Shown here piece after piece: positions 13,059-33,216 of a stretch of DNA of 64,000 nt (its first letter is position 1; every line of letters begins with the position of its first letter). The notes below the pieces were generated by a model. It was not told the origin of the DNA. It was given only the letters and a program-made list of their open reading frames with translations, and made no database searches. The stretch comes from Halarcobacter sp. (lineage in GTDB: Bacteria > Campylobacterota > Campylobacteria > Campylobacterales > Arcobacteraceae): the NCBI RefSeq assembly GCF_963676935.1, contig NZ_OY781470.1:434001-498000 (forward strand). Reading direction: 5' to 3'. Both the position numbers and the translations under genes were made by a program.

Positions 13059-13076
13059 AGAGTTTTACTCTTTATC
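13054..13076. terminator. Bidirectional terminator between antiporter and olsF
   Basis: This is a perfect 10-bp stem, GATAAAGAGT (13054-13063) with ACTCTTTATC (13067-13076), around a TTT loop. It contains the stop codons of both convergent genes. T-rich sequence follows on the + side (TATATATCTTTTT), and an A-rich stretch on the left gives a T-run on the minus side. Confidence 0.8.
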
Positions 13077-14777
13077 TATATATCTTTTTCTTGCACTATT
13101 TTTTATCTTTTCTATTTCAACTAAAATAAATCCATCAACACAATTTGAAAAATCTGGATCCACATTAAAAGCTAAAAATTTAACTCCATCCTCTTCACAT
13201 ATATCTGAATATTGTTTGAAAAGGGTTGGTACAGTTACCCCCATACTATTTAAAGTTGATTTTAAAGTTTTAAAATCTTTCTTTTTATCATCAAGAGAAA
13301 ATACATCTTTTAAATCTTTTGTATGACAAGAGTACTGATATGGTAACTTTGCTTCAATTAGTATTTTTTTACTTGAAAAGTAATGGCTATAGTGATATAT
13401 CATCATATCTTTTGCAAGAGATGGAAAGGTTCCAGATATTGAAACTGGACCAAACATATATTTAATATGTGGGTGAGCCTTTAAATAAGCACCTATTCCA
13501 TACCATAAATAATCTAGCGCTCTTGTTCCCCAATATTTTGGTTGAACAAAACTTCGTCCCAATTCTATAGAGTCTTTTAAATATGGATCAAAGTTTGGAT
13601 TATATTTAAATAAAGTATTAGAATAAAACCCTTTTTTACCAATATTTTCATTTATAAAGTTTCCATTACCTATCCTATATGAGCCTACAATTTCTAAATC
13701 ATTTTCATCCCAAAGAACTATATGTTGATAATATATATCATATTTATCTGTATCTCTTTTTTGATTTATACCTTCACCAACTTTCCTAAAACTTAGTTCT
13801 CTTAGCCTTCCTAACTCTTTTAATACAACAGAATCATCTTCATAATCATAAAGATAGATTTTTTTACCATCAGAAGTTTCTCCTAAAAGTTTAGACTTTT
13901 TTAACTCTTTTAAAATATCATTTTTCTTTTGTGGGTGAGCTATCGCTTTTTGAGTTACAAAATAAGATTTTTTACCTTTTTTTAAAGCATAAACATGTTT
14001 TTTATAAAGGCTTACAACAACTTTCTTATCTAAACCTCTTGGTTTAATATTTTCATTTGGAATTATTTCCCCAATTTTTATATTAATATTTGTTGACTTC
14101 TTTCTAAACATCTCATTTGATAATAAAAGAGTTGAAAATGTTTTATTAATCAAAGACATAGTATAAAAGGATTTAGAGTTTTTACCACCAATAAAAATTG
14201 GTAATATTGGGGCATTTGAATTCATTGCAAAGTTAATAAATCCCTTATTCCAAGAAGGATCTTTAACACCATTTGCACTTGCTCGACTAACTTCTCCTGC
14301 TGGAAAGATTATAATTGCACTCTCATCATTTAGTGCTTCATAAACTTTTTGAATATCTTTTTTTGATTGTCTCATTTTATAGTTATCAATTGGTATAAAA
14401 AGAGTTTTTAAAGCATCTATTCCAATAAGAAAATCATTGGCAACAATCTTAACATCAGTTCTAACTGTACTTATAAGTTTTAAAAGTGAAAGGGCATCCA
14501 ATGCACCTAATGGATGGTTAGCAATAATAACAACTTTACCACTAGCTGGTATATTTTGTATATCATTACTTGAAACTGTGTAATCAAACTCAAAGTAGTC
14601 TAATACTGCATCAACAAACTCAAACCCTTTTAAATGGGAATTTTTTTCTAAAAATTCATTTATTGAGTTTTCATGAATTACTTTTTTTGCAATCTTTATT
14701 AAGGATTTGCTTAAAAAGTTAGGTTTTTTTGCAACCTTTGGAAACTTTTTTTCAATCTCTTTTTGCACATCTATCAT
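13065..14777 (-). CDS. olsF: Bifunctional ornithine-lipid synthase OlsF-like
   Basis: The 570-residue protein joins two acyltransferase domains. The N-terminal half has a lysophospholipid-acyltransferase motif NHPLGALD (H88, D94) and the FPAGEVSRA block. The C-terminal half (about 320-560) is an OlsB/hemolysin-type N-acyltransferase, with VGSYRIGN, ELGRSFVQPKYWG and YMFGPVSISGTFP. This arrangement is that of OlsF, which makes ornithine lipid from ornithine and acyl-ACP at the inner membrane. Ornithine lipids replace phospholipids when phosphate is scarce. It is transcribed away from the di-heme gene at 14916, with an AAGGAGAAAAT ribosome site and a predicted Pho box in the shared upstream region. 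Confidence 0.85.
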   Translation of the reverse strand: MIDVQKEIEKKFPKVAKKPNFLSKSLIKIAKKVIHENSINEFLEKNSHLKGFEFVDAVLDYFEFDYTVSSNDIQNIPASGKVVIIANHPLGALDALSLLKLISTVRTDVKIVANDFLIGIDALKTLFIPIDNYKMRQSKKDIQKVYEALNDESAIIIFPAGEVSRASANGVKDPSWNKGFINFAMNSNAPILPIFIGGKNSKSFYTMSLINKTFSTLLLSNEMFRKKSTNINIKIGEIIPNENIKPRGLDKKVVVSLYKKHVYALKKGKKSYFVTQKAIAHPQKKNDILKELKKSKLLGETSDGKKIYLYDYEDDSVVLKELGRLRELSFRKVGEGINQKRDTDKYDIYYQHIVLWDENDLEIVGSYRIGNGNFINENIGKKGFYSNTLFKYNPNFDPYLKDSIELGRSFVQPKYWGTRALDYLWYGIGAYLKAHPHIKYMFGPVSISGTFPSLAKDMMIYHYSHYFSSKKILIEAKLPYQYSCHTKDLKDVFSLDDKKKDFKTLKSTLNSMGVTVPTLFKQYSDICEEDGVKFLAFNVDPDFSNCVDGFILVEIEKIKNSARKRYIDKE

Positions 14778-14799: not shown

Positions 14800-14833
14800 A
14801 TTTTAAAAAAAATCCATTACAAAAAAGTTACAT
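14800..14833 (-). promoter_or_regulatory. Predicted Pho box and -10 for olsF
   Basis: Reading the minus strand, the direct repeat is ATGTAAC (14833-14827), four bases, TTGTAAT (14822-14816), an 11-bp period. Exactly ten bases later comes a -10 element TAAAAT (14805-14800), 23 bases ahead of the olsF ATG. The same layout is found at three other promoters in this region, which is the main support. Confidence 0.65.
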
Positions 14834-14851
14834 ATTTACAAAAAATAAATG

Positions 14852-14885
14852 TTGTTATCAATTTGTAATAATCAAAAAGTAAAAT
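14852..14885 (+). promoter_or_regulatory. Predicted Pho box and -10 for the di-heme/NicO operon
   Basis: The direct repeat is TTGTTAT (14852-14858), four bases, TTGTAAT (14863-14869), an 11-bp period. The -10 element TAAAAT (14880-14885) lies exactly ten bases after the box and 31 bases before the ATG at 14916. It is divergent from the olsF box in the same intergenic region. Confidence 0.7.
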
Positions 14886-14915
14886 GCAAATTTAATAAAG
14901 ATTAAAGAGTAAAAA

Positions 14916-16664
14916 ATGAATAAAAAATATATAAATATTTCAATATTGTTGTATGCCTGTTGTAGTTTATCTGCACAAGATTTAAAAACAAAAAACCTTT
15001 ATAATACCACTGCTTATATCTCAAGTCAGTGTTATACAAAAACTGTAAATGATGCAGATGAAAATATATTGCATAACCCATGTTTTAGTTGTCATACAAA
15101 AAATAAAGAACCGAATTTTACTTTAAGTGATGATGATTTGCAGGAGGCTTATGATTTTCCTGAAGCAGCATTAAAAAATCCTTGGATTAATCTATTCAAA
15201 GATAGAACATCTCAAGTAGAGAAGATATCAGATGAAGAGATTTTAACGTATATAAAAGAAGATAATTATAAGAGTAAAGATGGGGATATAATTTTAAAAT
15301 CAAAATTGGAAAACTTAAATAAAGAATGGGATTTTAATGAAAATGGAAAGTGGGATGGATATATCCCTGATATAAATTTTAGTTTTGATAAAGAGGGCTT
15401 TGATAAAGATTCTTCTGGAAACTATACAGGGTGGAGGGCATTTGCTTATCAGCCCTTTTTAGGAACATTTTGGCCAACAAATGGAAGTACAGATGATGTA
15501 TTAATTAGATTACCAAAAAGTTTTCAAAGTGATGAAAATGGCAATTTTAATTTAGATATATATAAATTAAATCTTTTAATAATTGAAAGCTTAATCAAAC
15601 AAAAATCGATTGAGATTGATGAGCTTGATGAAAACTCTTTTGGTGTAGATTTAAATCAAAATGGAAAACTTGATAAAACTTCAACAATTGTATTTAATTG
15701 GAAAATTCCAAAATATGATAATAAAACAAAAAAGATTTATGGTTATTCAATGAATTATGTTGGATTAGCAAAAAAGGAATTGTTAGAAGGAAAAAGACAC
15801 ATCGCACCAGGACTTTATCCTGTGGGTACTGAGTTTGCTCATACAGTAAGATATATTGATGTTGATAATAATGAGATAAAAATAGCTTCAAGGATTAAAG
15901 AGTTTAGGTATGGGAAAAAGAAGCTTTGGAATACTTATTCTCAATTACACAATTTAGGTCTTAGTGAAATCAAAGAAAAACATGATTTCCCAGATAGAGT
16001 TGATGTATATTTAGGAAATATTGAAGTTGGATTAAGTAATAAAAGAGGATGGTATTATCAAGGGTTTATTGAAGATAAAAAAGGTGAATTAAGACCTCAA
16101 ACTTACGAAGAAACTCTTTTTTGTATGGGATGTCATAGTAATTTAGGTTCAACAGCAGACTCTACTTTTGTTTTTCAAAGAAAATTAGAAAAAAACTCTT
16201 TTGCTAAGGGATGGTACCATTGGACTCAAAAAGGTTTAAAAGGAATACCAGATAAAAAGTTAAAAAATGGTCAAACTGAATATGTAAGATATATAAAAGA
16301 GAATAGTGCAGGGGATGAATTTAGAGCAAATGAAGAGATTGAAAATAAGTTTTTTATCTCAAATTGGAAAGATGATAAACAGAATATTGAAAAAGATTTA
16401 ATAGCAAAATTAGAGAATCCCGAAATCCCTTTATCTCAAGATTGGAAATTTAAAAATAAAGAGTTAGAAAAAGTCAAAAATGATATATCTTATTTAATAC
16501 TACCATCCAAGCAAAGAGCTTTAAATTTAAATAAAGCCTATAAAGTAATAGTTGATGAACAAAGTTATATCTATGGGAGAGATCCACATATTAAACCTGC
16601 AACAAATGTTTATCAAAAGATAGATAAAGGTCAAATGACTCACCTACAAAAGATTTCACAATGA
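14916..16664 (+). CDS. Periplasmic di-heme c-type cytochrome-like protein
   Basis: The 582-residue protein has an N-terminal signal peptide (cleavage near LSA-QD, residue 20) and two heme c attachment motifs, CFSCH at 56-60 and CMGCH at 403-407. Between them lie Asp/Asn/Gly-rich loops resembling calcium sites (DFNENGKWDG, DLNQNGKLD) and the conserved block WRAFAYQPFLGTFWPTNG. It is a paralogue of the 767-residue lipoprotein at 22183; they share both hemes and the C-terminal VIVDEQSYIYGRD. The reaction is unknown. Being at the head of an operon with NicO and DUF1007 under a predicted Pho box, it may serve electron transfer or phosphorus-compound oxidation in starvation. Its stop overlaps NicO by four bases. 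Confidence 0.75.
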   Translation: MNKKYINISILLYACCSLSAQDLKTKNLYNTTAYISSQCYTKTVNDADENILHNPCFSCHTKNKEPNFTLSDDDLQEAYDFPEAALKNPWINLFKDRTSQVEKISDEEILTYIKEDNYKSKDGDIILKSKLENLNKEWDFNENGKWDGYIPDINFSFDKEGFDKDSSGNYTGWRAFAYQPFLGTFWPTNGSTDDVLIRLPKSFQSDENGNFNLDIYKLNLLIIESLIKQKSIEIDELDENSFGVDLNQNGKLDKTSTIVFNWKIPKYDNKTKKIYGYSMNYVGLAKKELLEGKRHIAPGLYPVGTEFAHTVRYIDVDNNEIKIASRIKEFRYGKKKLWNTYSQLHNLGLSEIKEKHDFPDRVDVYLGNIEVGLSNKRGWYYQGFIEDKKGELRPQTYEETLFCMGCHSNLGSTADSTFVFQRKLEKNSFAKGWYHWTQKGLKGIPDKKLKNGQTEYVRYIKENSAGDEFRANEEIENKFFISNWKDDKQNIEKDLIAKLENPEIPLSQDWKFKNKELEKVKNDISYLILPSKQRALNLNKAYKVIVDEQSYIYGRDPHIKPATNVYQKIDKGQMTHLQKISQ

Positions 16665-17392
16665 TTGGTTTATATGAAGATTTTTTAAATTTTGTTATTA
16701 GTAGTCAGCAAAAAATTAATTTATTAATAAGCAATTATTTTGATAGATTAGATGCAGGTGATTCGAATATGTTTATTTATATTCTTGCTGTATCATTTTT
16801 GTATGGCTTGATTCATGCTTTAGGTCCAGGACATGGAAAAATGATAATTGCAAGCTATTTTTTAGTAAAAGGTGCAAAAGTTAAAGAAGCATTTAAAGCA
16901 GGTTTTTTAACTTCAATAATTCATACAATATCAGCACTGGTAATAACATTTACTTTGTATATTTTCTTTGAATCAACAATAACAAAATATTTTTCAGATA
17001 TCAATACAAATATGTATAAAGTATCTGCCATATTTATAATAGCAATAGCTTTATTCTTACTATATGAAGTATATAAAGATAGAAATATAGAAGAAAAAGA
17101 GCAAAAAATTGGAAATAAATCTTTATTTGCAGTTACTATGTCAATAGGGATTGTTCCATGCCCAGGAGTTATGTCTATTGTACTTTTTTCATTAATCTTA
17201 GGATATATAAAATTAGGTATTTTAAGTGCTATTGTAATGAGTATTGGCATGGGTATTACAATATCTTTAGCAGCTGTATTAACAACACAAATTAAAAATA
17301 ATAATAGCAAAACAATACAATATTTTATAAATTATATATCTTATATAGGTATTGCAATCTTACTTTTTATGGGGATTGTACTTTTAGTATGA
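16661..17392 (+). CDS. NicO family nickel/cobalt-type transporter
   Basis: The 243-residue inner-membrane protein has six predicted segments. It carries the NicO/RcnA signature HALGPGHGK (H52, H58), which is followed by FKAGFLTSIIHTISA. Family members move Ni2+ or Co2+, mostly outward for RcnA types, but the substrate cannot be fixed from sequence. It lacks the His-rich cytoplasmic loop of E. coli RcnA; the loop here is short and acidic. It begins within the stop of the di-heme gene (ATGA) and ends the same way into the DUF1007 gene. The strict coupling suggests one functional unit. Confidence 0.85.
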   Translation: MIGLYEDFLNFVISSQQKINLLISNYFDRLDAGDSNMFIYILAVSFLYGLIHALGPGHGKMIIASYFLVKGAKVKEAFKAGFLTSIIHTISALVITFTLYIFFESTITKYFSDINTNMYKVSAIFIIAIALFLLYEVYKDRNIEEKEQKIGNKSLFAVTMSIGIVPCPGVMSIVLFSLILGYIKLGILSAIVMSIGMGITISLAAVLTTQIKNNNSKTIQYFINYISYIGIAILLFMGIVLLV

Positions 17393-17871
17393 AAAAAGTT
17401 TTATTATTTATTTTTACCCATCTTGTTGCTTTTGCTCATCCTCACTATTTTTTAGATACAGCTTTAGAAATTAAAGAAAATGTAATAAAAAACCATTGGA
17501 AATTTGATAGATTAAATTCCAAGATTTTAATGTTTGATTATGATAAAAACAAAAATAAAATATTGGATTTAAATGAGAAAAAAGAGTTTTTATTGGCAAA
17601 TTTTTATAAATTAGAAGATAACAATTTTAACATTTTTTTAGCTAATGAAAATGAAGAGATAAAAGTTAAACCTAAGAATGTTGATTTAATAATTGATAAA
17701 AAACGTTTAGTTATAGTTTTTGATATCCCTTATAACTTAGCAAATGAAAACACATTTTGCACAATGGATGAAAAAATCTATCTTGCTTATAAGTTAGAAA
17801 AGTTGATAACGAACTATGATAAAGAAGTTCAAAAAAGTGAATATGATTTTTGTATAGGAGTTTTTAAATGA
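17389..17871 (+). CDS. DUF1007 family periplasmic protein
   Basis: The 160-residue product has a signal peptide (MKKVLLFIFTHLVAFAHPHY) and the AHPHYF N-terminal motif typical of DUF1007, a periplasmic family that accompanies NicO-type transporters. A putative EF-hand-like loop, DKNKNKILDLNE, lies near residues 52-63 and could bind Ca2+. The mature His-Pro-His start could bind a metal. It overlaps the genes on both sides by four bases. It is likely a metal-handling accessory of the adjacent transporter, though the metal is not known. Confidence 0.8.
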   Translation: MKKVLLFIFTHLVAFAHPHYFLDTALEIKENVIKNHWKFDRLNSKILMFDYDKNKNKILDLNEKKEFLLANFYKLEDNNFNIFLANENEEIKVKPKNVDLIIDKKRLVIVFDIPYNLANENTFCTMDEKIYLAYKLEKLITNYDKEVQKSEYDFCIGVFK

Positions 17872-18185
17872 TTAAAAAAAGTATTATAGGGTTAGCTTTT
17901 TTAGGGATAAATCTATTTGCCCATCCAGTGAGTTATACAATAGATTTAGAAGTAAACTATGATGAAAAAAATGGATTAGCTTCAATTGTTTGTAAAAGTA
18001 ACAGTAGAAATAAATGTGGTTTATATAATATCAAATTGTTATCAAAAGATAAAAAGGAACTTGCAAATAAAAGATTTCCTTTTTTAAAAGATTCAACTAC
18101 TGTAAAAGTTGCTAAAAAACCTTATGAATTAGAGTTTTATTTAAGAAAGGTACCAGAACACAAATACTTGATGATATTTCAGTAA
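17868..18185 (+). CDS. Small periplasmic protein, unknown function
   Basis: This 105-residue protein has a signal peptide ending near LFA-HPVSY, so the mature form would start with His-Pro, like the DUF1007 protein before it. The rest is a short beta-rich domain with two Cys (in CKSNSRNKC), a possible disulfide. I do not recognise a family. It is the last gene of the four-gene operon from 14916, overlapping the DUF1007 gene by four bases. Shared N-terminal His-Pro suggests, as inference, a common metal or partner. Confidence 0.7.
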   Translation: MIKKSIIGLAFLGINLFAHPVSYTIDLEVNYDEKNGLASIVCKSNSRNKCGLYNIKLLSKDKKELANKRFPFLKDSTTVKVAKKPYELEFYLRKVPEHKYLMIFQ

Positions 18186-18291
18186 AAATTAATAATATAG
18201 TTACCTTTTGATTATTTAAATTATATTTTTATGTATATAGCTTCCCATATATTAGTATTTATAGATATTTTTAAAGTAACCATTATTAAAA

Positions 18292-18325
18292 TTGTTATCA
18301 TAATGTAATTTTTCATTTTTATAAT
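18292..18325 (+). promoter_or_regulatory. Predicted Pho box and -10 for phoX
   Basis: The direct repeat is TTGTTAT (18292-18298), four bases, ATGTAAT (18303-18309). A consensus TATAAT follows at 18320-18325, exactly ten bases after the box and 47 bases before the ATG. The downstream gene is a phosphatase, which is the expected kind of target. Confidence 0.75.
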
Positions 18326-18371
18326 TGCCTGTCGCTAAAGGGCGTTAGTTAATAATAAAAAAGGAAAATAA

Positions 18372-21300
18372 ATGAAAAAATCTCATTTGAGTCTAAGTGC
18401 TTGCGCAATATTGGCAGCATTTACATTTGTAGGTTGTGGTTCATCAGGTGATTCTGGTGCATACTTCGCTACATCAAATACAGGTGCTTTACAACTTAAT
18501 CCACTTCTTGCTAATGTTGAGTATACATGTGGTACACATTCAGGACTAACAGATAGTAATGGTGAATATAAATATTCAACAGGGGATACTTGTGCTTTTA
18601 CTATAGGTGGGGTAACTTTAAAAGGGACTCCTAATTCAAATTTAACAATTGAAGCTTTAGCTGAACAAAATGATGGAGTTGATGAAACAGCTTTAACATC
18701 ATATATTATTGCAGTTATGTCAGAAAAAACTGGTATTGATTATGATATAAATAATTTACCTGACAATTTTGAATTACCACAAAATGTTAGTGGTGATACA
18801 AATAATCCAGTAAATTTTAAATCTATTGAAAGTTTAATGGAAAGTATTAGTGATTCAGATATAAAAAATAGAGTAAATAAGATTAAATATAAAGTTTCTA
18901 ATAGATTTGCAAAAAGAGTATCTTTATCTTTTGAGGAAATAGCTGTTCCAACTACAGATGAAACTAAGCTTACTCAACAAGCTTCTAAAAAAGCTTTTGT
19001 AAATGGGAAAGAACAATCTATTGGATATTCTACATTAGTTAGTACAGGTTATAATGATAACAATGAAATATTAGGAAAATCTAAAGACTACTTAGATAAT
19101 GATATAAAATTTAGTGATGGTAGTAATTATATCTGTAATGGTACAAATGGTGGAGCTGGTTCAGGTATGGATTTTACTTCACTACATAATGTTGATGGTA
19201 AATTATATGTAATATCACAATTTGAATGTGCTTTAGGTTCATATTATATGTTAGAGGTTGAACAAGATGAAACAACAGGTGCTTTAAGTCCTAAAAAAAA
19301 TACCTTACAATTTATCTCACAAAAAGATGATTTTGGTGGTTGGGTACATTGTGCAGGACAAAGAACACCTTGGAATTCACATCTAAGTTCAGAAGAATAT
19401 GAACCTGATACTAGAGCAGTAGAAGCTAACATTGATTCTCAAACTGGTTTAGTTGGTGATAGCTATTATGATAGTGTTGCATCAAAATTCTGGGGAAATA
19501 CTTCACAAATGTCTTCATATTATTATGGATGGACACCTGAAATTAAAATCAAAAATGGACAAGCTGAATATTCTAAACATTATTCAATGGGTAGATTTTC
19601 TCATGAATTATCTTATGTAATGCCAGATAGTAAAACTGTATATATGAGTGATGATGGTACAAATGTAGGTTTCTTTATGTTTGTAGCAGATACTGCTGAG
19701 GATTTAACTTCAGGTACTTTATATGCAGCAAAATGGAATCAAACTTCAGCAAATGGTGCAGATGCAGGTGCTGCAGATTTGTCATGGATTAGTTTAGGTC
19801 ATGCAACTGACAGTCAGATTAAAGCAATCTTAGACCCTGATAATGATATTACAACAAATGATGCACCAAAATTTTCTGATATATTTAATGTTTCATCTCC
19901 TTCAAATGGAACTTGTTCTTCAAACTTTACTTTAATTAAAGCTAATGGTTCTACTGAAGAGTGTTTACAATTAAAAGAGGGTATGGAATTAGCAGCATCA
20001 AGATTAGAAACAAGAAGATATGCAGCGATGCTTGGAGCAACAACAGAATTTAGAAAAGAAGAGGGTATAACTTTTGATAAAAACTCTGGAAGACTTTATG
20101 TTTCAATGAGTGAAGTTAGAAAAGGTATGCTTGATAATGATAGTTCATATGACAGTTCATCAATTAATCATATTAGAGTAAAAGAGAATAAATGTGGTGC
20201 AGTTTATGCTTTAGATGTAGATGTTAATAGTGTAAAAGATACAAATAATACAGTAATAAACTCTTCATATGTTGTAAAAAATATGTACTCAATTCTTGAA
20301 GGTACTTATTTAGATGGTACCCCTTTAGCTTATGCTAGTGATTCAGCTTATGCAGGTAATAGATGTGATGTAAATGGTATCGCAAGTCCTGATAATGTTA
20401 CATTTTTAGAAGATTCAAATACCTTAATGATTGGAGAAGATACTTCACATCATAAAAACAATGTTGTGTGGGCTTATAATACAAAAACAAAAGAGTTAAC
20501 AAGAACTTTTACAACACCACTTGGTGCTGAAACAACTTCTCCTTTTTGGTATCCTGAACTTAAAAATGGATTTGGTTACTTAGGTGTAGTTACTCAACAC
20601 CCAAGTAAAGAATCAACTGATGGTGGAGAATCAGCATTTGGATATGTTGGACCATTTAAAAATCTAACAGAAAAAGTTGATACTACTGATGCATTAAGTT
20701 CAATTGAAAAAATTGCTACTTATTCAACTCAAACAGAAGCAGCAGCGGAAATTGTTGCATTTGATAAAGATTCAAATAAAGCATTTGTAACAAATGGAGC
20801 AACTAATGCAATTGATGTATTATCAGTTACATATAATAGTGAGACAAAAACCACTTCAATGGAAAAAGCATCTTCTATAGATTTATCAAGTTATGGAGCA
20901 GGTGTTCAAAGTGTTGCAGTAAGTAATGGAAAAATTGCAGTTGCAGTTGGAAGTGAAAGTAAAGCTACTGTAAAAGGTTCAGTTGTAGTTTTTGATATAG
21001 TTGGAACACACCTTAAAACAATTGAAGCTGGATATTTACCAGATATGGTTACTTTCAATGAGGATGGAACTAAAATTTTAGTTGCAAATGAAGGTGAACC
21101 AAATAGTACATATGAAAATGATCCTATAGGGTCTATTGGTATTATTGATGTTGCTGATAACTATGCATATACTGATATAACATTCTCAAATGTTACTATC
21201 CCTGATGAGGTGATTATTAAAGATTCAGCTGAAGCTGCACAAGATATAGAACCTGAATATATTACAGTATCTGGAAACAAAGCTTATGTAACATTACAAG

Positions 21301-22115
21301 AAAACAATGCAATAGCTATTGTTGATATTGAAAAGAAATCAATTGATTCAGTTGTATCTTTAGGGTTTAAAGATTATTCTTTAGAAAAAAATGCAATTGA
21401 TATTGAAGAAGAAGGTCAAGCATTATTAAAAACTTATGATTCATTATATGGTATGTATATGCCAGATTCAATCGCTTCTTATAAAATTGGTTCTAAAACT
21501 TATTTAGTAACTGCAAATGAGGGTGATGGTAGAGAATATGGAGATGAAAATGATGATACTTATTATACAAATGAGAAAAAAATCAAGAAATTAGATTTAG
21601 TAGATTCTTTAGTAAGTGTTTATGCTGATGAAAATGATTTAAAAGTTCATTCTGAATTAGGTAAAAATTCTGAAGGTAAATATGAAAAATTGTATGCATT
21701 TGGTGCTAGAAGTTTCTCAATTTGGAATCAAGAAGGTACTTTAGTTTTTGATAGTGCTAATGAATTATCAAAATTAACAAGTAAATTTATGCCTGAACTA
21801 TTTAATCAAGATGATGGTGAAATAGATGGAAGAAGTGGAAATAAAGGTGTTGAACCTGAAGCACTAGCAGTTGGAGAATTAAAAGATAGAACTTATGCTT
21901 TTGTTGGCTTAGAAAGACAAAATGCAATAGTTGTATATGATATTTCAACTCCAGAAAAAGCTAAGTTTGTTAAATATATTATCACTGAAAAGGATGGTGA
22001 CATCTCTCCTGAAGGTATGAAGTTTGTATCAAAAGAGAATAGTCCTACAGGAAGTGCATTACTATTTGTTTCTTATGAAATGAGTGGTTCTACTTCAATT
22101 TATGAAATTAAATAA
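18372..22115 (+). CDS. phoX: PhoX-type alkaline phosphatase fused to choice-of-anchor I domain
   Basis: This is a 1247-residue predicted lipoprotein (lipobox FVGC, Cys22). The first two-thirds resemble PhoX (DUF839), an Fe/Ca-dependent phosphomonoesterase: MGRFSHELSYVMPDSKTVY, ASRLETRRYAAMLGATTEFR, SPDNVTFLEDSNTLMIGEDT and AETTSPFW. The last third (from about 770) is a choice-of-anchor I/YVTN-like propeller with FDKDSNKAFVTNGATNAIDV, ILVANEGEPN and YLVTANEGDGREYGDE, a domain often found in secreted phosphatases and nucleases. It is about twice the length of classical PhoX. It would release phosphate from organic esters at the cell surface. A Pho box lies upstream, and a terminator hairpin separates it from the next gene. 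Confidence 0.85.
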   Translation: MKKSHLSLSACAILAAFTFVGCGSSGDSGAYFATSNTGALQLNPLLANVEYTCGTHSGLTDSNGEYKYSTGDTCAFTIGGVTLKGTPNSNLTIEALAEQNDGVDETALTSYIIAVMSEKTGIDYDINNLPDNFELPQNVSGDTNNPVNFKSIESLMESISDSDIKNRVNKIKYKVSNRFAKRVSLSFEEIAVPTTDETKLTQQASKKAFVNGKEQSIGYSTLVSTGYNDNNEILGKSKDYLDNDIKFSDGSNYICNGTNGGAGSGMDFTSLHNVDGKLYVISQFECALGSYYMLEVEQDETTGALSPKKNTLQFISQKDDFGGWVHCAGQRTPWNSHLSSEEYEPDTRAVEANIDSQTGLVGDSYYDSVASKFWGNTSQMSSYYYGWTPEIKIKNGQAEYSKHYSMGRFSHELSYVMPDSKTVYMSDDGTNVGFFMFVADTAEDLTSGTLYAAKWNQTSANGADAGAADLSWISLGHATDSQIKAILDPDNDITTNDAPKFSDIFNVSSPSNGTCSSNFTLIKANGSTEECLQLKEGMELAASRLETRRYAAMLGATTEFRKEEGITFDKNSGRLYVSMSEVRKGMLDNDSSYDSSSINHIRVKENKCGAVYALDVDVNSVKDTNNTVINSSYVVKNMYSILEGTYLDGTPLAYASDSAYAGNRCDVNGIASPDNVTFLEDSNTLMIGEDTSHHKNNVVWAYNTKTKELTRTFTTPLGAETTSPFWYPELKNGFGYLGVVTQHPSKESTDGGESAFGYVGPFKNLTEKVDTTDALSSIEKIATYSTQTEAAAEIVAFDKDSNKAFVTNGATNAIDVLSVTYNSETKTTSMEKASSIDLSSYGAGVQSVAVSNGKIAVAVGSESKATVKGSVVVFDIVGTHLKTIEAGYLPDMVTFNEDGTKILVANEGEPNSTYENDPIGSIGIIDVADNYAYTDITFSNVTIPDEVIIKDSAEAAQDIEPEYITVSGNKAYVTLQENNAIAIVDIEKKSIDSVVSLGFKDYSLEKNAIDIEEEGQALLKTYDSLYGMYMPDSIASYKIGSKTYLVTANEGDGREYGDENDDTYYTNEKKIKKLDLVDSLVSVYADENDLKVHSELGKNSEGKYEKLYAFGARSFSIWNQEGTLVFDSANELSKLTSKFMPELFNQDDGEIDGRSGNKGVEPEALAVGELKDRTYAFVGLERQNAIVVYDISTPEKAKFVKYIITEKDGDISPEGMKFVSKENSPTGSALLFVSYEMSGSTSIYEIK

Positions 22116-22120
22116 CTTAT

Positions 22121-22145
22121 AAAAGAGGGGTTCCCCTCTTTTATA
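22121..22145 (+). terminator. Hairpin after phoX
   Basis: The palindrome AAAAGAGGGG (22121-22130) is followed by TT and CCCCTCTTTT (22133-22142), then a T-rich run. It is a strong stem, close behind phoX. The next gene, at 22183, has no Pho box of its own in the 67-bp gap, so it may be reached by read-through. Confidence 0.75.
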
Positions 22146-22182
22146 TATAAAAAGTTTTTTTAAATATTTTAAGGAGAAGAAA

Positions 22183-24486
22183 ATGTTTAGAAAAATTTTA
22201 TTAAGTAGTTTAACTGCTTTTGCCATAATAGGTTGTGGTGGGGGAGGTGGTTCAGGAGGATTTATCTCTTCTAACTCAGAGCAATCAACCCTAGTAACAG
22301 TAGAAAGAGGTTCTGTTTTAAATGGAATAGTTACAGATAGTTTGGGACAAAAAGCTATTTGGAATAAAGGAACAAACACTTATACTTTTGAAAAGGCAAT
22401 TACCTATCCAATAAAAGTAACAGGTGGTTTTGTAGATATAGATAATGATGGTATAAAAAATAATTCTGATTTTGATTTAGATATTGAACTTAAGTCTTCA
22501 AATGGGAAAAATATAACTTTGTTAACTACTGTAGTTTTTGATGAAGATGAAAACATAGAAAAAAGTAATAAAGAGTATTTCATCAATGAGTTTTTATTAG
22601 ATGAAGATGATATATTAAAACTACCATCTTCAAAAAAAAGACTTGCTTTGTTATCAAATATAATCTACAAAAATTTAGAACTTAATTCTACATTGAATTT
22701 AGATAATATTATGACTTTGATTAGTTCAGGTAAACTTGATATTAAAACTGAATATGAGAATACTAATTTAAATGATTATTCAAATCTTTCACCATCAGAA
22801 TTTTTAGAAGAGAATGAGAAAAAGATGATAAAAGATATTGAAAAAATAAAAGCATCTAAATCTAATTTACCAAACTATTCAGGAGATGATATAACTTCAA
22901 CTACAATAATCAATAAACAATCAGCATATATCTCACCTCAATGTTATACAAAAACAGAAGATGCAGCTGGTAAAATATATAATCCCTGTTTTTCATGTCA
23001 TATAAATTCCCAAGAGCCAAACTATATAGATGATTGGGATTTACAAGAAAGTTATGCTTTTAATGCAAATAGTTATCAAAACCCTTTTACAAATAGTTTT
23101 AAAGATAGGACAAGCTTGGTTGATGCTATAAGTGATGAAGATATTTTAGAATATATCAATGTAGATAATTATAAAAATAATCAAGGAGATATAATTTTAG
23201 CTTCAAAACTAAAATATGATTTACCTTCAAAGTGGGATTTTTCTCAAGATGGGATAAAAGATGGCGTTTGGAGTGGGTATGTACCAGATTGTTTTTTTAA
23301 TTTTGATTCTGAAGGATTTGATTTAGATAATAATGGAAGTTATACAGGATGGAGAGCTTTTGCTTATTCACCATTTCTAGGTACATTTTGGCCAACTAAT
23401 GGTAGTACAGATGATGTATTGATTAGACTACCTAAATTTATGAGAGAAGATAGTAATGGAAACTTTTCAAAAGAGGTTTATAAAATAAATCTTGCAATTG
23501 TAGAATCAATGATAAAAAAAGATGATGTTGCTTTAGACTTTCAGGTTGATGAATCTAAATATGAAGTAGACTTAAATCATAATGGTATTTTTGATTCAAC
23601 ATCTGTAATAATTTATAAATGGGATACCTCTAATATAGTAAAAAAAGATTATTATGTGGGACTTGCTAAAGATAAATTAGAGGCAAAGGAATTGCATATT
23701 GCTCCTGGTTTATATCCAAAGGGAACAGAATTTTTACATTCAGTTAGATATATAGGGATAAATGATGATAAGAGTGGAATAAAACTTGCTAAAAGGATGA
23801 AAGAATTAAGATATGGTAAAAAAACATCTTGGAATACTTATTCTCAACTTTATAATGCTGCATTATCTGAGATAAAAGAGAAGCATGATTTTCCAGATAG
23901 ATTAAAAACAATAAATGGAAATATTGAAGCAGGACTTCAAACTGGTTTAGGGTGGAGATATCAAGGGTTTATTGAAGATATAAATGGAAATCTAAGACCA
24001 CAAAGTTATGAAGAGACTCTTTCATGTATTGGATGCCACTCTGGAATAGGAGCAATAACAGATACAACATTTGCCTTTCCAAGAAAAGATAATAGTTATA
24101 AAAATGGTTGGTATCATTGGTCACAAAAAGATTTAGTTGGATTAAAAGATAGAATACTTTCTAATGGAAAAGGTGAATATGCTTTTTATTTAGAACAAAA
24201 TAAAGCGGGTGATGAGTTTAGAGGAAATCAAGAGATAAAGGACAAATTTTTTGATTCAAATGGAGATTTAATTCAAAGTGAAGTTGATAAAATAAAAGAT
24301 GATATAAGTTACCTTATTTATCCTAGTGTTCAAAGGGCGATTATGCTTAATAAAGCTTATAAGGTTATTGTGGATGAACAAAGTTATATATATGGAAAAG
24401 ATGCCCATATTGAACCTTTAAATGATACAGTATTTGATGAAGTAATAATAGATAAATCAACAGGTATAAGTGCTATAAAATATTAA
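22183..24486 (+). CDS. Di-heme lipoprotein, paralogue of the 14916 protein
   Basis: The 767-residue protein begins with a lipoprotein signal (AIIGCGGGGGSGG, lipobox Cys18). It has an extra N-terminal domain of about 210 residues, with an acidic loop DIDNDGIKNNSDFD that resembles a thrombospondin-type-3 or EF-hand calcium site. The rest aligns with the 582-residue protein at 14916: heme motifs CFSCH (269-273) and CIGCH (615-619), FLGTFWPTNGSTDDVLIRLP, HIAPGLYPKGTEF, KHDFPDR, VIVDEQSYIYGKD. It is probably surface-anchored, as its neighbour PhoX is. Function is unknown; an oxidoreductase or electron carrier is plausible. A ribosome site (TAAGGAGAAGAAA) precedes the ATG. Confidence 0.75.
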   Translation: MFRKILLSSLTAFAIIGCGGGGGSGGFISSNSEQSTLVTVERGSVLNGIVTDSLGQKAIWNKGTNTYTFEKAITYPIKVTGGFVDIDNDGIKNNSDFDLDIELKSSNGKNITLLTTVVFDEDENIEKSNKEYFINEFLLDEDDILKLPSSKKRLALLSNIIYKNLELNSTLNLDNIMTLISSGKLDIKTEYENTNLNDYSNLSPSEFLEENEKKMIKDIEKIKASKSNLPNYSGDDITSTTIINKQSAYISPQCYTKTEDAAGKIYNPCFSCHINSQEPNYIDDWDLQESYAFNANSYQNPFTNSFKDRTSLVDAISDEDILEYINVDNYKNNQGDIILASKLKYDLPSKWDFSQDGIKDGVWSGYVPDCFFNFDSEGFDLDNNGSYTGWRAFAYSPFLGTFWPTNGSTDDVLIRLPKFMREDSNGNFSKEVYKINLAIVESMIKKDDVALDFQVDESKYEVDLNHNGIFDSTSVIIYKWDTSNIVKKDYYVGLAKDKLEAKELHIAPGLYPKGTEFLHSVRYIGINDDKSGIKLAKRMKELRYGKKTSWNTYSQLYNAALSEIKEKHDFPDRLKTINGNIEAGLQTGLGWRYQGFIEDINGNLRPQSYEETLSCIGCHSGIGAITDTTFAFPRKDNSYKNGWYHWSQKDLVGLKDRILSNGKGEYAFYLEQNKAGDEFRGNQEIKDKFFDSNGDLIQSEVDKIKDDISYLIYPSVQRAIMLNKAYKVIVDEQSYIYGKDAHIEPLNDTVFDEVIIDKSTGISAIKY

Positions 24487-24499
24487 CTTATAATACTTT

Positions 24500-24533
24500 T
24501 TGTTATTGTTCTGTAATCCTTCATTATTATAAT
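24500..24533 (+). promoter_or_regulatory. Predicted Pho box and -10 for the glycerophosphodiesterase
   Basis: The direct repeat is TTGTTAT (24500-24506), four bases, CTGTAAT (24511-24517). TATAAT lies at 24528-24533, exactly ten bases after the box and 32 bases before the ATG. It is the fourth instance of this layout. Confidence 0.75.
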
Positions 24534-24564: not shown

Positions 24565-25788
24565 ATGGTAAAACTTTTAAAAGTTACTTTTGGTTTAGTT
24601 TTGGCTTTTATCTCTTTTGCAAATGCACAAGAGAATATTCAATTAGGAGTAAGACCATATTATTTAGTAAATGATATGGATGAAAGCAGTTTAAAAAAAG
24701 AGCTTCAATCATGTGTTGATAAAACTCCCTCACGAACATTTTTTTCAATTGGTCACAGAGGTGCACCACTTCAATTCCCTGAACACACAAGAGAATCATA
24801 TGTAGCCGCAGCAAAAATGGGAGCTGGAATTATTGAGTGTGATGTGGCTTTTACAAAAGATAAAGAGTTGGTTTGTAGACACTCTCAATGTGATTTACAC
24901 ACAACAACAAATATTTTAGCTACACCTTTAGCTTCAAAATGTACAAAAGAGTTTACTCCTGCTGTTTATGATAAAAATGGAAAGTTAATAAAAGAAGCAA
25001 GTGCAATGTGTTGTACCTCAGATATTACTTTAGCTGAGTTTAAATCATTAAAAGGGAAAATGGATGCATCAAATAAAACTGCTACAACTTTAGAAGAGTA
25101 TATGGATGCAACTGCTTCTTTTAGAACAGATTTATATAGTCAAAATGGAACATTAGTAAGCCATAAAGAGAGTATTGAATTATTTAAACAATTAGGTGTA
25201 AAAATGACACCAGAGTTAAAAACTCCAAGTGTAAAAATGCCTTTTAATAAAGATTACACACAAGAAGATTATGCACAACAAATGATAAATGAATATAAAC
25301 AAGCAGGTGTAAAACCAAGTGATGTTTTTGTCCAATCTTTTAATATTAAGGATATTAAATACTGGATAAAAAATGAACCAAAATTTGGATTACAAGCAGT
25401 ATATTTAGATGATGATGTTTATAACGAAAAAGATGGGATGCAAAAGCAGATTGCAAAGATGAAAGAGTTTTCAAAAATGGGTATAAAGTATATTGCACCA
25501 CCTTTACAAATCTTAGTTACACTTGATAAAAATAAAAAAATAGTTCCATCAAAGTATGCCTTAGAGGCTCAAAAACAAAATATAGGAATTATAACTTGGA
25601 GTATAGAAAGATCAGGACCACTTAAAAACGGTGGAGGTTGGTATTATTCTTCAATCAAAGATGCAATTAATAATGATGGAGATATGTATGAATTGATTGA
25701 TGTTTTAGCTCAAAAAGTAAAAGTAAAAGCTATTTTCTCCGATTGGCCTGCAACTATTACTTACTATGCCAATTGTAAAGGTCTTTAA
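24565..25788 (+). CDS. glpQ: Secreted glycerophosphodiester phosphodiesterase
   Basis: This 407-residue protein has a signal peptide (residues 1-21, ending FANA-QE) and the GDPD fold. The catalytic and metal-site motifs are HRGA (H64, R65), PEHT, ECD (E91, D93) and RHS (H106). It would hydrolyse glycerophosphodiesters from phospholipid head groups to glycerol-3-phosphate in the periplasm, a phosphate-scavenging reaction. An insertion with several cysteines (SKC, MCC) follows the active-site region. It has its own predicted Pho box and is closed by a strong hairpin at 25818. Confidence 0.9.
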
Positions 25789-30219: not shown

Positions 30220-30876
30220 ATGAAACTATTAATCCTTGAAGACAATGAAACTTTAGCAGATGGTATTTATAAAAAACTAAAAGAGATAGGTTTTATTGCA
30301 GATGTTTTCTATGAAGGGGAAGAGGGACTTTTCGCTTTAGAAACATCTACATATGACCTTCTTATTTTGGACTTAGGTCTTCCAGGAATTGATGGAATCG
30401 ATATTATAAAAAAGCTACGTAGTTCTCAAAAAAACCTTCCTATTTTAGTTATATCTGCAAGAGATAGATTGGATCAAAGAATTTTAGGTTTAGATACCGG
30501 TGCGGATGATTATATATGTAAACCTTTTGAGTTAGATGAAGTTGTAGCAAGAGTACAAGCCCTTCTTAGAAGAAGTAATAATCAAACTTCAAATATCATA
30601 AAATACAATGACTTGGAATTTAACTCTCAAACTTTAGCTTTAACAAGAGATGAAGAAAAAATTGAATTAAGTAAAAGGGAATTAACTATATTTGAATATC
30701 TACTTCAAAATCTAAATGCAATAGTAAGTAAAGAGAATATAGTAGAACATATAACTTCTATTGATGATGAATTTAACCCAACTGCTGTTGAAACTTATGT
30801 CTCAAGACTCAGAAAAAAATTAGGAGATTCCATAAATTTAAAAACAGTTAGAGGTTTAGGTTATATGATGAGTTAA
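30220..30876 (+). CDS. OmpR-family response regulator (TctD-like)
   Basis: The 218-residue protein has a receiver domain (acidic pocket EDN near residue 8, phosphorylated Asp51 in LILDLGLPG, Lys in CKPF). A C-terminal winged helix DNA-binding domain follows (RELTIFEYLL... VETYVSRLRKKL... RGLGYMM). The subfamily is QseB/PmrA/TctD-like. It is paired with the histidine kinase two bases downstream. Position among Tct genes and the shared 11-bp-period repeat at four promoters point to it as the activator of the tricarboxylate regulon. Confidence 0.9.
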   Translation: MKLLILEDNETLADGIYKKLKEIGFIADVFYEGEEGLFALETSTYDLLILDLGLPGIDGIDIIKKLRSSQKNLPILVISARDRLDQRILGLDTGADDYICKPFELDEVVARVQALLRRSNNQTSNIIKYNDLEFNSQTLALTRDEEKIELSKRELTIFEYLLQNLNAIVSKENIVEHITSIDDEFNPTAVETYVSRLRKKLGDSINLKTVRGLGYMMS

Positions 30877-30877
30877 C

Positions 30878-32257
30878 ATGGATACAAACACTACATCTAT
30901 TAAATCAAGCCTTATTGCTTGGTTAACTTTCCCACTAGTTATTTTTACAATGATTCTTTTTATTTATATATATTTTATATTAGAAAAAAAAGTTACAGAT
31001 TTTTTTGATAATAGATTAAAAGCTAGTGCTAAAAGTATTGAATATAGTATTGGAATAAAGAACTCAAAACTTTTTGTTGATATACCTAGCTTTTCAATTG
31101 AGTTACTCTCTTCAAATGATAAGGGTTTAATCTTTTACTCTGTGGTGGATGAAGAGAATAGTCTTCTTGTGGGGTATGAATCTTTATTAAATAAAAGTAG
31201 ATTAGTTGACGAAGAAGCTGTATTTTATAATACAAAATACAATGACTCTAATTTAAGAATTGTGTCTTATAAAACTTCCCTCTATAGTGCAGGAAAAGTT
31301 TACAATGCTTATATTACTTTAGGAGAAACCACAGAAGAAAGAGATGAAAATATAAACTACGTATTGAGCCTACTTCTAATTATAATGGTAATTGTAATAG
31401 TTTCTACTGTCTTAATAACCCTTGTTGCAGTTTCTGAGGGCTTAAAGCCACTAAATAAGCTAAAGAGAATTATAAAAAAAAGAGATGAAAGGGATTTAGA
31501 ACCCCTTGTTTTTAATGCACCTAAAGAGGTTGAAGATATTGTAAAAAGTATTAATATCTTATTAGAAAGAAGCAGAGATACTATTGATTATATAGAACAA
31601 TTCAACTCTGATGTATCCCATCAATTAAGAACTCCTCTTGCAGAGATGAAAGTAAAATTAGAGTTTTTATATGATAAAGATGATAAAAATTATATCACTT
31701 TAAATTCTCTTTTAAATAATATGTCACATATAACAGAACAGCTTCTTTTATATGCAAAAACAAATCCAAATACTATAAATTTAAAACGATTTAAAAAACA
31801 AAGTTTAAATAAAATATGCAAAGAGTATAGTTTAAAAACTGCTCCAAGAATATATGAAAAAGGTTTTGAGTTTGCTTTTGAAAATATGGAAGAAGAGGTT
31901 TTTATAAAGTGTGACCAAATTCTTCTTGAGAGTATGTTAGATAATATAATAAATAATGCTTTACACTATGCAGTTGATGAAAATGGAAATCCTATGGGAA
32001 CAATTACTTTATCTTTAGAAAGACACAATAATACTATTTGGTTAAATGTAAAAGATGAAGGAAATGGTGTTGACAAGAAGTTTTTAAAAACTATTTTTGA
32101 GAGATACTATAGAGTTGACTCTAAAAAAAGTGGTTCAGGATTAGGACTTAGTATTGTAAAACAAATAGCTACACTTCATAATGCAAAGGTTCAAGCAATA
32201 AATGAAAATGGATTAAAAATATCATTGATCTTTGATTTTCCAAAAATTAAGAACTAG
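30878..32257 (+). CDS. Sensor histidine kinase (TctE-like)
   Basis: The 459-residue inner-membrane kinase has membrane segments at about 13-35 and 165-190 that flank a periplasmic sensor of about 130 residues. A HAMP-like linker follows (EGLKPLNKLKRII). The HisKA box is VSHQLRTPLAEMK (H248), and the ATPase domain has NIINNALHYAV and GSGLGLSIVK. The layout is that of TctE-type citrate/tricarboxylate sensors. It is co-transcribed with the regulator. Its stop overlaps the end of the convergent Bug gene by four bases, so there is no space for a terminator there. Confidence 0.9.
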   Translation: MDTNTTSIKSSLIAWLTFPLVIFTMILFIYIYFILEKKVTDFFDNRLKASAKSIEYSIGIKNSKLFVDIPSFSIELLSSNDKGLIFYSVVDEENSLLVGYESLLNKSRLVDEEAVFYNTKYNDSNLRIVSYKTSLYSAGKVYNAYITLGETTEERDENINYVLSLLLIIMVIVIVSTVLITLVAVSEGLKPLNKLKRIIKKRDERDLEPLVFNAPKEVEDIVKSINILLERSRDTIDYIEQFNSDVSHQLRTPLAEMKVKLEFLYDKDDKNYITLNSLLNNMSHITEQLLLYAKTNPNTINLKRFKKQSLNKICKEYSLKTAPRIYEKGFEFAFENMEEEVFIKCDQILLESMLDNIINNALHYAVDENGNPMGTITLSLERHNNTIWLNVKDEGNGVDKKFLKTIFERYYRVDSKKSGSGLGLSIVKQIATLHNAKVQAINENGLKISLIFDFPKIKN

Positions 32258-33216
32258 TCTTCTATTAAATAGTTGAATTTTTTAAAATCTTCATAAGAGT
32301 TTTGTAAAATTTTTTTAGAATTTTGTGAACCTATCCAAGTATAGCCAATATTTTTTCTTTTTAAATATCTATGTACAGATTTTTTTGCTAATGTCTTTTT
32401 AATTGCATTTTCTAGAATTCTAAATCTATGGGGAAAATCTTCTTTAAATTTTTTTGAAACGGCTATTCCTCTTATTGGACCATGTATAATAGGCATTGTT
32501 ATACCTGTATCTTTTATTGTATCATTTAAGGTTGGAGCATCCCATCTTTTAGATGGTTTATTTGATACAATGGCAAGTGGTTTAATATATTCTCTATACT
32601 TTTCACTTCCTTGAGCTGCAATAATAAGAAGATCAACTTTTGATTCAAGTAATGCTTTTCTTGCACTTCCACCTCCATTATAAAGTTTTATATCAACATC
32701 TTTAAAAGGTATATTAAACTTTTCTAGTAATAGTTTAAAAAGGATATGTCCACTTGATTTATTTATTAGGGCTACTTTTAACTCTTTTGGATTCTTTTTT
32801 ATATAGTTTAATATTTCAACTATAGAGTTAAATTCTGAGTCTTTTCCCACTGCAATAAAATCTTGTTCAAACCACTGAAGGTTTATTATTTCAAAATCAT
32901 TTAATGAAAAATCTGCTTTTTTACTTATTATTAGATTTAATAGATATGGAGAAAAAGTGGAACAAAATACTTTATACCCATCATGGGGTTCTTTTAAAAC
33001 ATAATTAGCAGCATCTAAGGAACCATTAGTTTTGATAGTTTTTACATTTATATGTACACCTAATTCTTTTTGAAGAAGTGCTGCCATATTTCTTGTCATT
33101 CTATCAGCACTTCCCCCTTCACCAAGACCAACTACAAACTCAATTGATTTATTTGGATAATCAAATGAAAAAAGCAAGCTTTTTAACAAAATAAAAAATA
33201 AAAAGATATATCTCAT
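32254..33216 (-). CDS. Bug-family (TctC-like) periplasmic binding protein
   Basis: The 320-residue protein has a signal peptide (MRYIFLFFILLKSLLFSF) and the Bug/TctC start FDYPNKSIEFVVGLGEGGSADRMTRNMA, which binds the ligand's carboxylates in the family. It is the last gene of the tctA-prpF-tauE run, nine bases after the TauE gene. It is divergent from the main TctC at 37220, and many Asp-binding variations suggest another ligand. A role as a second or extra substrate sensor for the permease or the kinase is possible. Confidence 0.8.
   Translation of the reverse strand: MRYIFLFFILLKSLLFSFDYPNKSIEFVVGLGEGGSADRMTRNMAALLQKELGVHINVKTIKTNGSLDAANYVLKEPHDGYKVFCSTFSPYLLNLIISKKADFSLNDFEIINLQWFEQDFIAVGKDSEFNSIVEILNYIKKNPKELKVALINKSSGHILFKLLLEKFNIPFKDVDIKLYNGGGSARKALLESKVDLLIIAAQGSEKYREYIKPLAIVSNKPSKRWDAPTLNDTIKDTGITMPIIHGPIRGIAVSKKFKEDFPHRFRILENAIKKTLAKKSVHRYLKRKNIGYTWIGSQNSKKILQNSYEDFKKFNYLIED

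Follow-up and report, generated by a model that had tools for sequence, protein, structure and literature searches.

Four promoters within a 64-kb stretch of Halarcobacter sp. DNA (64,000 nucleotides, hereafter the window, meaning the whole stretch that was analysed) carry the same short direct repeat, which raises the question of whether this repeat is a true phosphate-starvation box and, if so, which regulator would read it. The initial annotation had described at each promoter a 7-4-7 repeat followed after exactly ten bases by TAAAAT or TATAAT, and both the coordinates and the description proved exact for all four. Each site has two 7-bp direct repeats with a 4-bp spacer and an 11-bp period, and the half-site consensus of the Halarcobacter box is (T/A/C)TGTWAY.

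The repeat and the promoters that carry it

The first site, ATGTAAC-TTTT-TTGTAAT followed by N10 and TAAAAT (14833-14800, minus strand), lies in the promoter of a minus-strand gene (13065..14777) for a bifunctional acyltransferase (Pfam Acyltransf_2 and Acetyltransf_5), which from its domain order we take to be an OlsF-like ornithine-lipid synthase. Divergent from it and 18 bp away, TTGTTAT-CAAT-TTGTAAT with N10 and TAAAAT (14852-14885, plus strand) serves a plus-strand gene run that codes for di-heme protein A (14916..16664), which has two CxxCH motifs and a weak similarity to cytochrome P460, a NicO metal transporter (16661..17392, PF03824), a DUF1007 protein (17389..17871, PF06226) and, closing the run, a 105-aa protein without family (17868..18185). 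The remaining two sites are also on the plus strand and end in TATAAT after N10. TTGTTAT-CATA-ATGTAAT (18292-18325) is found in the promoter of phoX (18372..22115, plus strand), whose product is a PhoX alkaline phosphatase (PF05787) fused to a choice-of-anchor I domain (PF22494), and of the gene that follows it, which encodes di-heme protein B (22183..24486, plus strand), 56% identical to A. TTGTTAT-TGTT-CTGTAAT (24500-24533) precedes a plus-strand gene for a GlpQ-like glycerophosphodiester phosphodiesterase (GDPD; 24565..25788, PF03009).

The E. coli PhoB pho box likewise has two 7-bp direct repeats, a 4-bp spacer, an 11-bp period and a TGTnA core. A fixed -10 distance in place of a -35 element is a feature of PhoB-type boxes that is present here as N10; in E. 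coli the distance from the pho box to the -10 is 10 bp. The half-sites differ, being CTGTCAT/TGTCAT in E. coli and TGTWAY in Halarcobacter, and the CTGTCAT feature is absent from the sites described here; one TGTCAT half-site in the genome precedes a plcP-like gene. In the excerpt of PMC4415409 available to us, the pho box is described as 7-bp direct repeats with a 4-bp spacer whose consensus differs among species, and CTGTCAT therefore defines the E. coli box and not the pho box as a class.

Occurrence of the repeat compared with controls

Searched exactly, HTGTWAYNNNNHTGTAAT has four matches in the window, and these are the four sites from which the pattern was built. The A+T content of the window is 72%. 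Taken without the -10 (at most one mismatch), the repeat is not significant in the window, with 5 matches against 3.9 expected and 31 of 100 shuffles reaching 5, as might be the case if AT-rich promoter composition produced the repeat and no dedicated regulator read it. The window by itself is therefore no proof, which is supplied by the genome counts. In the 3.1-Mb genome the pattern with its -10 (at most one mismatch) has 16 matches compared with 2 for the reversed control, and the 12 further matches outside the window constitute an independent test; a relaxed pattern gave 14 against 2, many of them at the same places. Across 15 congeneric genomes, 145 pattern matches were found and 10 for the reversed pattern. 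TGTAAY..TGTAAY pairs with gaps of 0-16 number 105 in the Halarcobacter sp. genome (52 for the reversed pattern), and among the 100 of these that were listed a period of 11 is the commonest spacing, with 16 pairs against 11 for the next; the in-frame periods 6, 9, 12, 15, 18 and 21 have 5-11 pairs each, as expected from coding sequence, and the remaining periods 0-8 each. The position of the -10 is strict: 52 of 84 repeat pairs picked regardless of any -10 have TANRAT at exactly N10, and none of the other distances between 2 and 20 accounts for more than 3.

A 34-position weight matrix that includes the -10 reaches a score of at least 10 in the window at the four sites only; it was trained on ten sites of this genome, the four among them, and the scores of those training sites are consequently not independent. 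Shuffled sequences contained none at a score of at least 15. Set against the reversed controls, the shuffles, the period-11 peak, the strict N10 and the kinds of genes that follow the sites, the compositional explanation has a negligible probability. As judged from sequence, the element at the four promoters is very probably a genuine phosphate-starvation box, common to the phosphate genes of this genome and its relatives.

Targets in the genome and in related species

Eleven of the 16 matches in the genome precede phosphorus genes or a di-heme gene. Outside the window, phosphorus genes follow seven of the 12, namely the pstS operon, a DeoR-ugpC-B-A-E-HAD operon, a phnF/C-P lyase operon, phoD, a second phoX, ppk2 and a plcP-like/glycosyltransferase pair; the classes pst, ugp and phn are also targets of E. 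coli PhoB. The genome search proposed as a check, which looked for the pattern upstream of pst, phoB and further phosphate genes, was positive, the pattern also standing before the operon that ends in genes for a PhoB-like regulator and a PhoR-like kinase, and the matches argue for the reading of the repeat as a phosphate-regulon site. The pattern proposed with it does mark phosphate genes, but its exact form is too narrow: the pstS box starts with AGTAAC and the ppk2 box ends with TGTAAA, so that mismatches or a weight matrix are needed.

The other five matches outside the window concern prx, a CAAX protease, a PotD-like binding protein, a DUF6815/PTS neighbourhood and pyruvate kinase; 5 of the 16 are unexplained or false. 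The exact match at 2544906 (prx/ferredoxin) is judged a false positive that overlaps the upstream edge and the first codons (MLVT) of prx; a site of this type lies 234-246 bases before a ferredoxin gene in five relatives, and its conservation is due to coding and start-site conservation of prx. The CAAX-protease (816904) and DUF6815/PTS (2556867) matches are left over, a repeat pair at 1906382 has a weight-matrix score below 10, and a PiT match in relative G014 is oriented away from the PiT gene.

All 65 matches in seven relatives (G017, G014, G012, G006, G009, G004 and G002) were tallied by hand: 38 precede phosphorus genes or a di-heme gene, 12 are scattered, and pyruvate kinase, chemoreceptors and the prx artefact account for 5 each, the reversed control having 6 matches over the same seven genomes. 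The box stands before the olsF orthologue in 8/8 relatives examined, that is, these seven and G008, in which 4 of 8 matches were inspected. The single glpQ orthologue found among 30 relatives (in G006) has a box with a score of 21.4.

The plcP-like gene, named from the metallophosphoesterase domain of its putative product and from context, and the GT4 glycosyltransferase gene are divergent and have a common intergenic region with one box on each side. PlcP/glycosyltransferase lipid remodelling in marine bacteria is the subject of PMC4796936. The association of a metallophosphoesterase and a GT4 glycosyltransferase at one box-bearing intergenic region resembles that system, and the differences are that here the genes are divergent, that each side has its box and that an OlsF ornithine-lipid route would be controlled in parallel. 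The ppk2 box with its TATAAT lies inside the 3' end of nspC in the Halarcobacter sp. genome and in 7/7 fully examined relatives. Over these eight genomes the synonymous identity of nspC is 0.89 at the box compared with 0.63 in the remainder of the gene, a level reached by 2 of 372 overlapping nspC windows, site included, which supports a dual-use sequence conserved beyond coding need.

A candidate regulator

The pst operon has the order pstS, EAL/GGDEF protein, pstC, pstA, pstB, phoU, PsiE-family protein, PhoB-like regulator and PhoR-like kinase, with one box before pstS and an internal triple repeat before pstC. In E. coli, phoB-phoR are found beside sbcD, whereas the regulator here is encoded in the pst operon. 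Such a layout was already in print for an aquifer Epsilonproteobacterium, in which phoU and phoB are annotated adjacent to pst, and the part of that paper available to us (PMC4674564) describes no pho box and no regulon member beyond pst.

The best NCBIfam family of the regulator is PhoB, but its score of about 173 bits is under the TIGR02154 equivalog cut-off of 296.2, hence the name PhoB-like; the kinase has 141 bits on the PhoR equivalog, for which the cut-off is 334. The PhoB base-contact residues T194, V197, R201 and R219, named in the consulted parts of PMC3264566 and PMC3973317, are all kept in the regulator, as in E. coli PhoB, and in 15/15 orthologues aligned. The regulator has a lysine at the position of the acidic E191 of PhoB. 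It also has Asn at position 196, as do 15/15 orthologues aligned, whereas E. coli PhoB has Asp. This substitution was considered as the cause of the change from TGTCA to TGTAA and was set aside, since D196 makes no contact to DNA according to the same excerpt of PMC3264566.

The genome is rich in OmpR-type regulators, and a different member of that family could bind the box and co-regulate phosphate and other genes; one of them (C1:2955611) is slightly ahead on the PhoB model (173.9 against 172.4 bits), and in several relatives pyk and chemoreceptor genes have the box upstream as well. However, C1:2955611 has Val at position 194, and each of 10 further OmpR-type regulators of this genome in the alignment (that at 30220-30876 of the window included) lacks at least one of the four contacts, which leaves the PhoB-like regulator alone among the 11 in having all of them. 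The box is moreover carried by the very pst operon that encodes the PhoB-like regulator, and this regulator, the one compared in this way, tracks the box over 200 genomes of the class. In these genomes the box was found in 57 (96 places against 4 for the reversed pattern, counted by hand) and a regulator match at E <=1e-40 in 85, and 53 of the 57 box genomes have both, a count that is inflated because related genomes are not independent trials. Proximity is subject to the same inflation and points the same way, 42 of 92 box sites lying within 10 kb of the regulator where about 0.84 were expected. The box was not found at this stringency in 32 of the 85 genomes with a regulator match, nor in any of 14 genomes in which the regulator match is only 39-41% identical; four box genomes are without the regulator, and one identical sequence is common to three of them. 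Within the family, each of 19/19 genomes has exactly one regulator match at the same threshold. On this evidence, control by another OmpR-family regulator appears highly improbable.

The association with pst genes was followed in the best 80 of 305 named loci that hold the regulator. An Arcobacteraceae-type group among these 80 (L138-L172, L176 and L184, the last titled Sulfurimonas) was set by rank and pst similarity. In this group a matrix score of at least 15 occurs before 28/30 pstS and 25/31 pstC genes, with 17 and 21, respectively, at a score of at least 20, and before 3/587 other genes. The signal is weaker in the other loci of the best 80, where a score of at least 15 precedes 5/15 PstC genes and 18/560 others; six of these 18 reach at least 20, and they comprise two PstA/PstC-like proteins, one weakly PstS-like protein and three exported proteins. 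Boxes before pst genes are also found in named Sulfurimonas and Sulfurospirillum records.

We are thus strongly inclined, with little doubt left, to regard the element as the pho box of this lineage, a predicted head-to-tail site for two monomers of the PhoB-like regulator, whose gene and that of the PhoR-like kinase close the box-bearing pstS-pstC-A-B-phoU-psiE operon. By analogy with PhoB, phosphate limitation would lead the kinase to phosphorylate the regulator, which would then bind the 11-bp-period repeat in tandem, head to tail, where a -35 element would otherwise lie. Given the distance of exactly 10 bases from the repeat to the -10, the bound regulator would be expected to recruit RNA polymerase and activate transcription. 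The regulon thereby induced would swap out phospholipids (olsF, plcP-like/glycosyltransferase), liberate phosphate from esters and phosphonates (phoX, phoD, glpQ, C-P lyase), import phosphate (pst, ugp) and handle polyphosphate (ppk2).

The best-studied relative is C. jejuni. A 2006 paper on C. jejuni PhosS/PhosR reportedly calls the system non-classical in its title. The C. jejuni PhosR box is GTTTCN4GTTTC, and this sequence is found at none of the four promoters; in the window it has 7 matches with at most one mismatch, against 4.7 expected. The initial annotation had spoken of a PhoB/PhosR-type site that defines the phosphate regulon, and this reading is well supported. C. jejuni PhosS/PhosR controls the pst genes and phoX (PMC3197622, from the part available to us); the present system belongs to the same phylum, and differs in its PhoB-like box and in regulator genes that adjoin pst.

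The di-heme proteins and PhoX

The di-heme box could be there for a reason other than phosphate, which would then regulate the classic genes only: a gap of 18 bp separates it from the divergent olsF box, so that it might be the neighbour's site, and the di-heme protein is uncharacterised. The distribution of the di-heme genes speaks against this. All five stand-alone di-heme genes have a box (scores 15-25, the Halarcobacter sp. copy belonging to the training set), and in G004 the di-heme copy and olsF are on different contigs; the other 6 of the 11 copies, which are without a box of their own, are directly behind phoX. It is therefore unlikely that the di-heme box is unrelated to phosphate. 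PhoX-type loci have a box with a score of at least 14 in 12/12 cases (2 in this genome and 10 in relatives, two of these ten being the choice-of-anchor half only), and for 9/11 di-heme copies a PhoX-type gene is found no more than 4 kb away. Di-heme and PhoX homologues (E <=1e-60) occur in the same 9/31 genomes, which has a chance of 5e-8 if they were independent, a figure whose force is lowered by the relatedness of the genomes. The box thus very probably links the two-heme protein to the phosphatase PhoX, judging from gene context.

Each of the 11 members of the di-heme family matches Pfam P460 with an E no higher than 0.01, the matches of both window copies being under Pfam's cut-off. The structure predicted by AlphaFold is of low quality (mean pLDDT 50.8), and its top Foldseek matches are cytochrome P460 and cytochrome c'-beta with a best E of 0.013, none reaching E <=0.001; a sequence search for a solved relative (E up to 1) returned none. 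These results weakly suggest a relationship to cytochrome P460. PhoX holds iron. Since each di-heme copy found either has a pho box upstream or immediately follows phoX, it is conceivable, if rather doubtful, that PhoX-type phosphatases work in partnership with the P460-like di-heme protein. The latter may provide the iron centre of PhoX, oxidise it or restore it or, alternatively, may release phosphate esters by oxidation for cleavage by PhoX, with NicO and DUF1007 handling metal. Among the open-licence papers listed, no title or abstract opening links PhoX to cytochrome c or heme.

Implications for the Arcobacteraceae

The element is a PhoB-type pho box with a consensus of its own lineage, in a phylum whose studied C. 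jejuni system is said to be non-classical. No pho box in Arcobacteraceae is named in titles and abstract openings of the open-licence papers listed, PMC9449129 and PMC4674564 among them. The Arcobacteraceae and some further Campylobacterota gain a defined pho box with a regulon that can be tested, and the interest sits in its unfamiliar members. From the box, lipid remodelling with ornithine lipids and glycolipids is predicted under phosphate stress, and the di-heme proteins, NicO/DUF1007, a NIT-domain chemoreceptor and a PHP-phosphoesterase ABC operon would belong to the phosphate-starvation genes. The most surprising lead is the link between PhoX and the di-heme protein; if the proposed partnership is true, phosphate scavenging would include redox chemistry.

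Boxes at candidate uptake systems, and the pst operon

The locus L023:59-6263 of the organism's own genome (contig C1, about 1358000-1364300) is a candidate for organophosphate uptake. In it, the gene for a PotD-like binding protein diverges from a PotABC-like operon that includes two genes for PHP-domain proteins, and each side has a pho box, with weight-matrix scores of 23 and 14.5. Among the related genomes, G009 has a Na+/Pi cotransporter gene downstream of a box (L116:1858-3006), and in G014 the box near a PiT-family gene is oriented away from that gene (L093:3066-4692). An EAL/GGDEF protein is encoded between pstS and pstC on the minus strand (L019:2507-4341); its frame in the own genome is open over the first ~90 residues and contains no ATG, GTG or TTG start there. 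Relatives of it occur in 22 of the 35 Arcobacteraceae-type loci L138-L172, a part of those chosen among the best 80 of 305 loci with the regulator.

In the window, an OmpR-type regulator, a 2CSK_N kinase and a gene that by eye resembles tctC follow one another (30220-33216), a succession that suggests a TctDE tricarboxylate system, and the weight-matrix scan of the window found no box of their own.

Promoter variants and a split fusion

At the glycosyltransferase and plcP-like promoters (L026:6255-6320; C1, about 2884254-2884320), the ATG lies only 6-7 bases past the end of the -10, a spacing that recurs in relatives (L079, L091, L097, L105, L130 and L135), and leaderless transcripts are therefore predicted on both sides of this intergenic region. 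Upstream of pyruvate kinase, a box-like repeat, usually ending in TGTAAA, is present in the own genome (L025:5616-5648) and in five of seven relatives (L086, L098, L119, L126 and L134).

The PhoX/choice-of-anchor I fusion of the window is split in G010 and G011: at L282 and L283, 945-aa proteins match solely its choice-of-anchor I half and have their own boxes, with separate PhoX-only genes nearby.

A chemoreceptor gene with a box

Finally, a box is present at a NIT/MCP/CZB chemoreceptor gene of the own genome (L249:3957-6977; C1, 1289456), and also at its counterparts, 57-68% identical, in G014, G006, G009 and G002 (L089, L110, L117 and L132), which makes it a candidate phosphate-starvation chemoreceptor.
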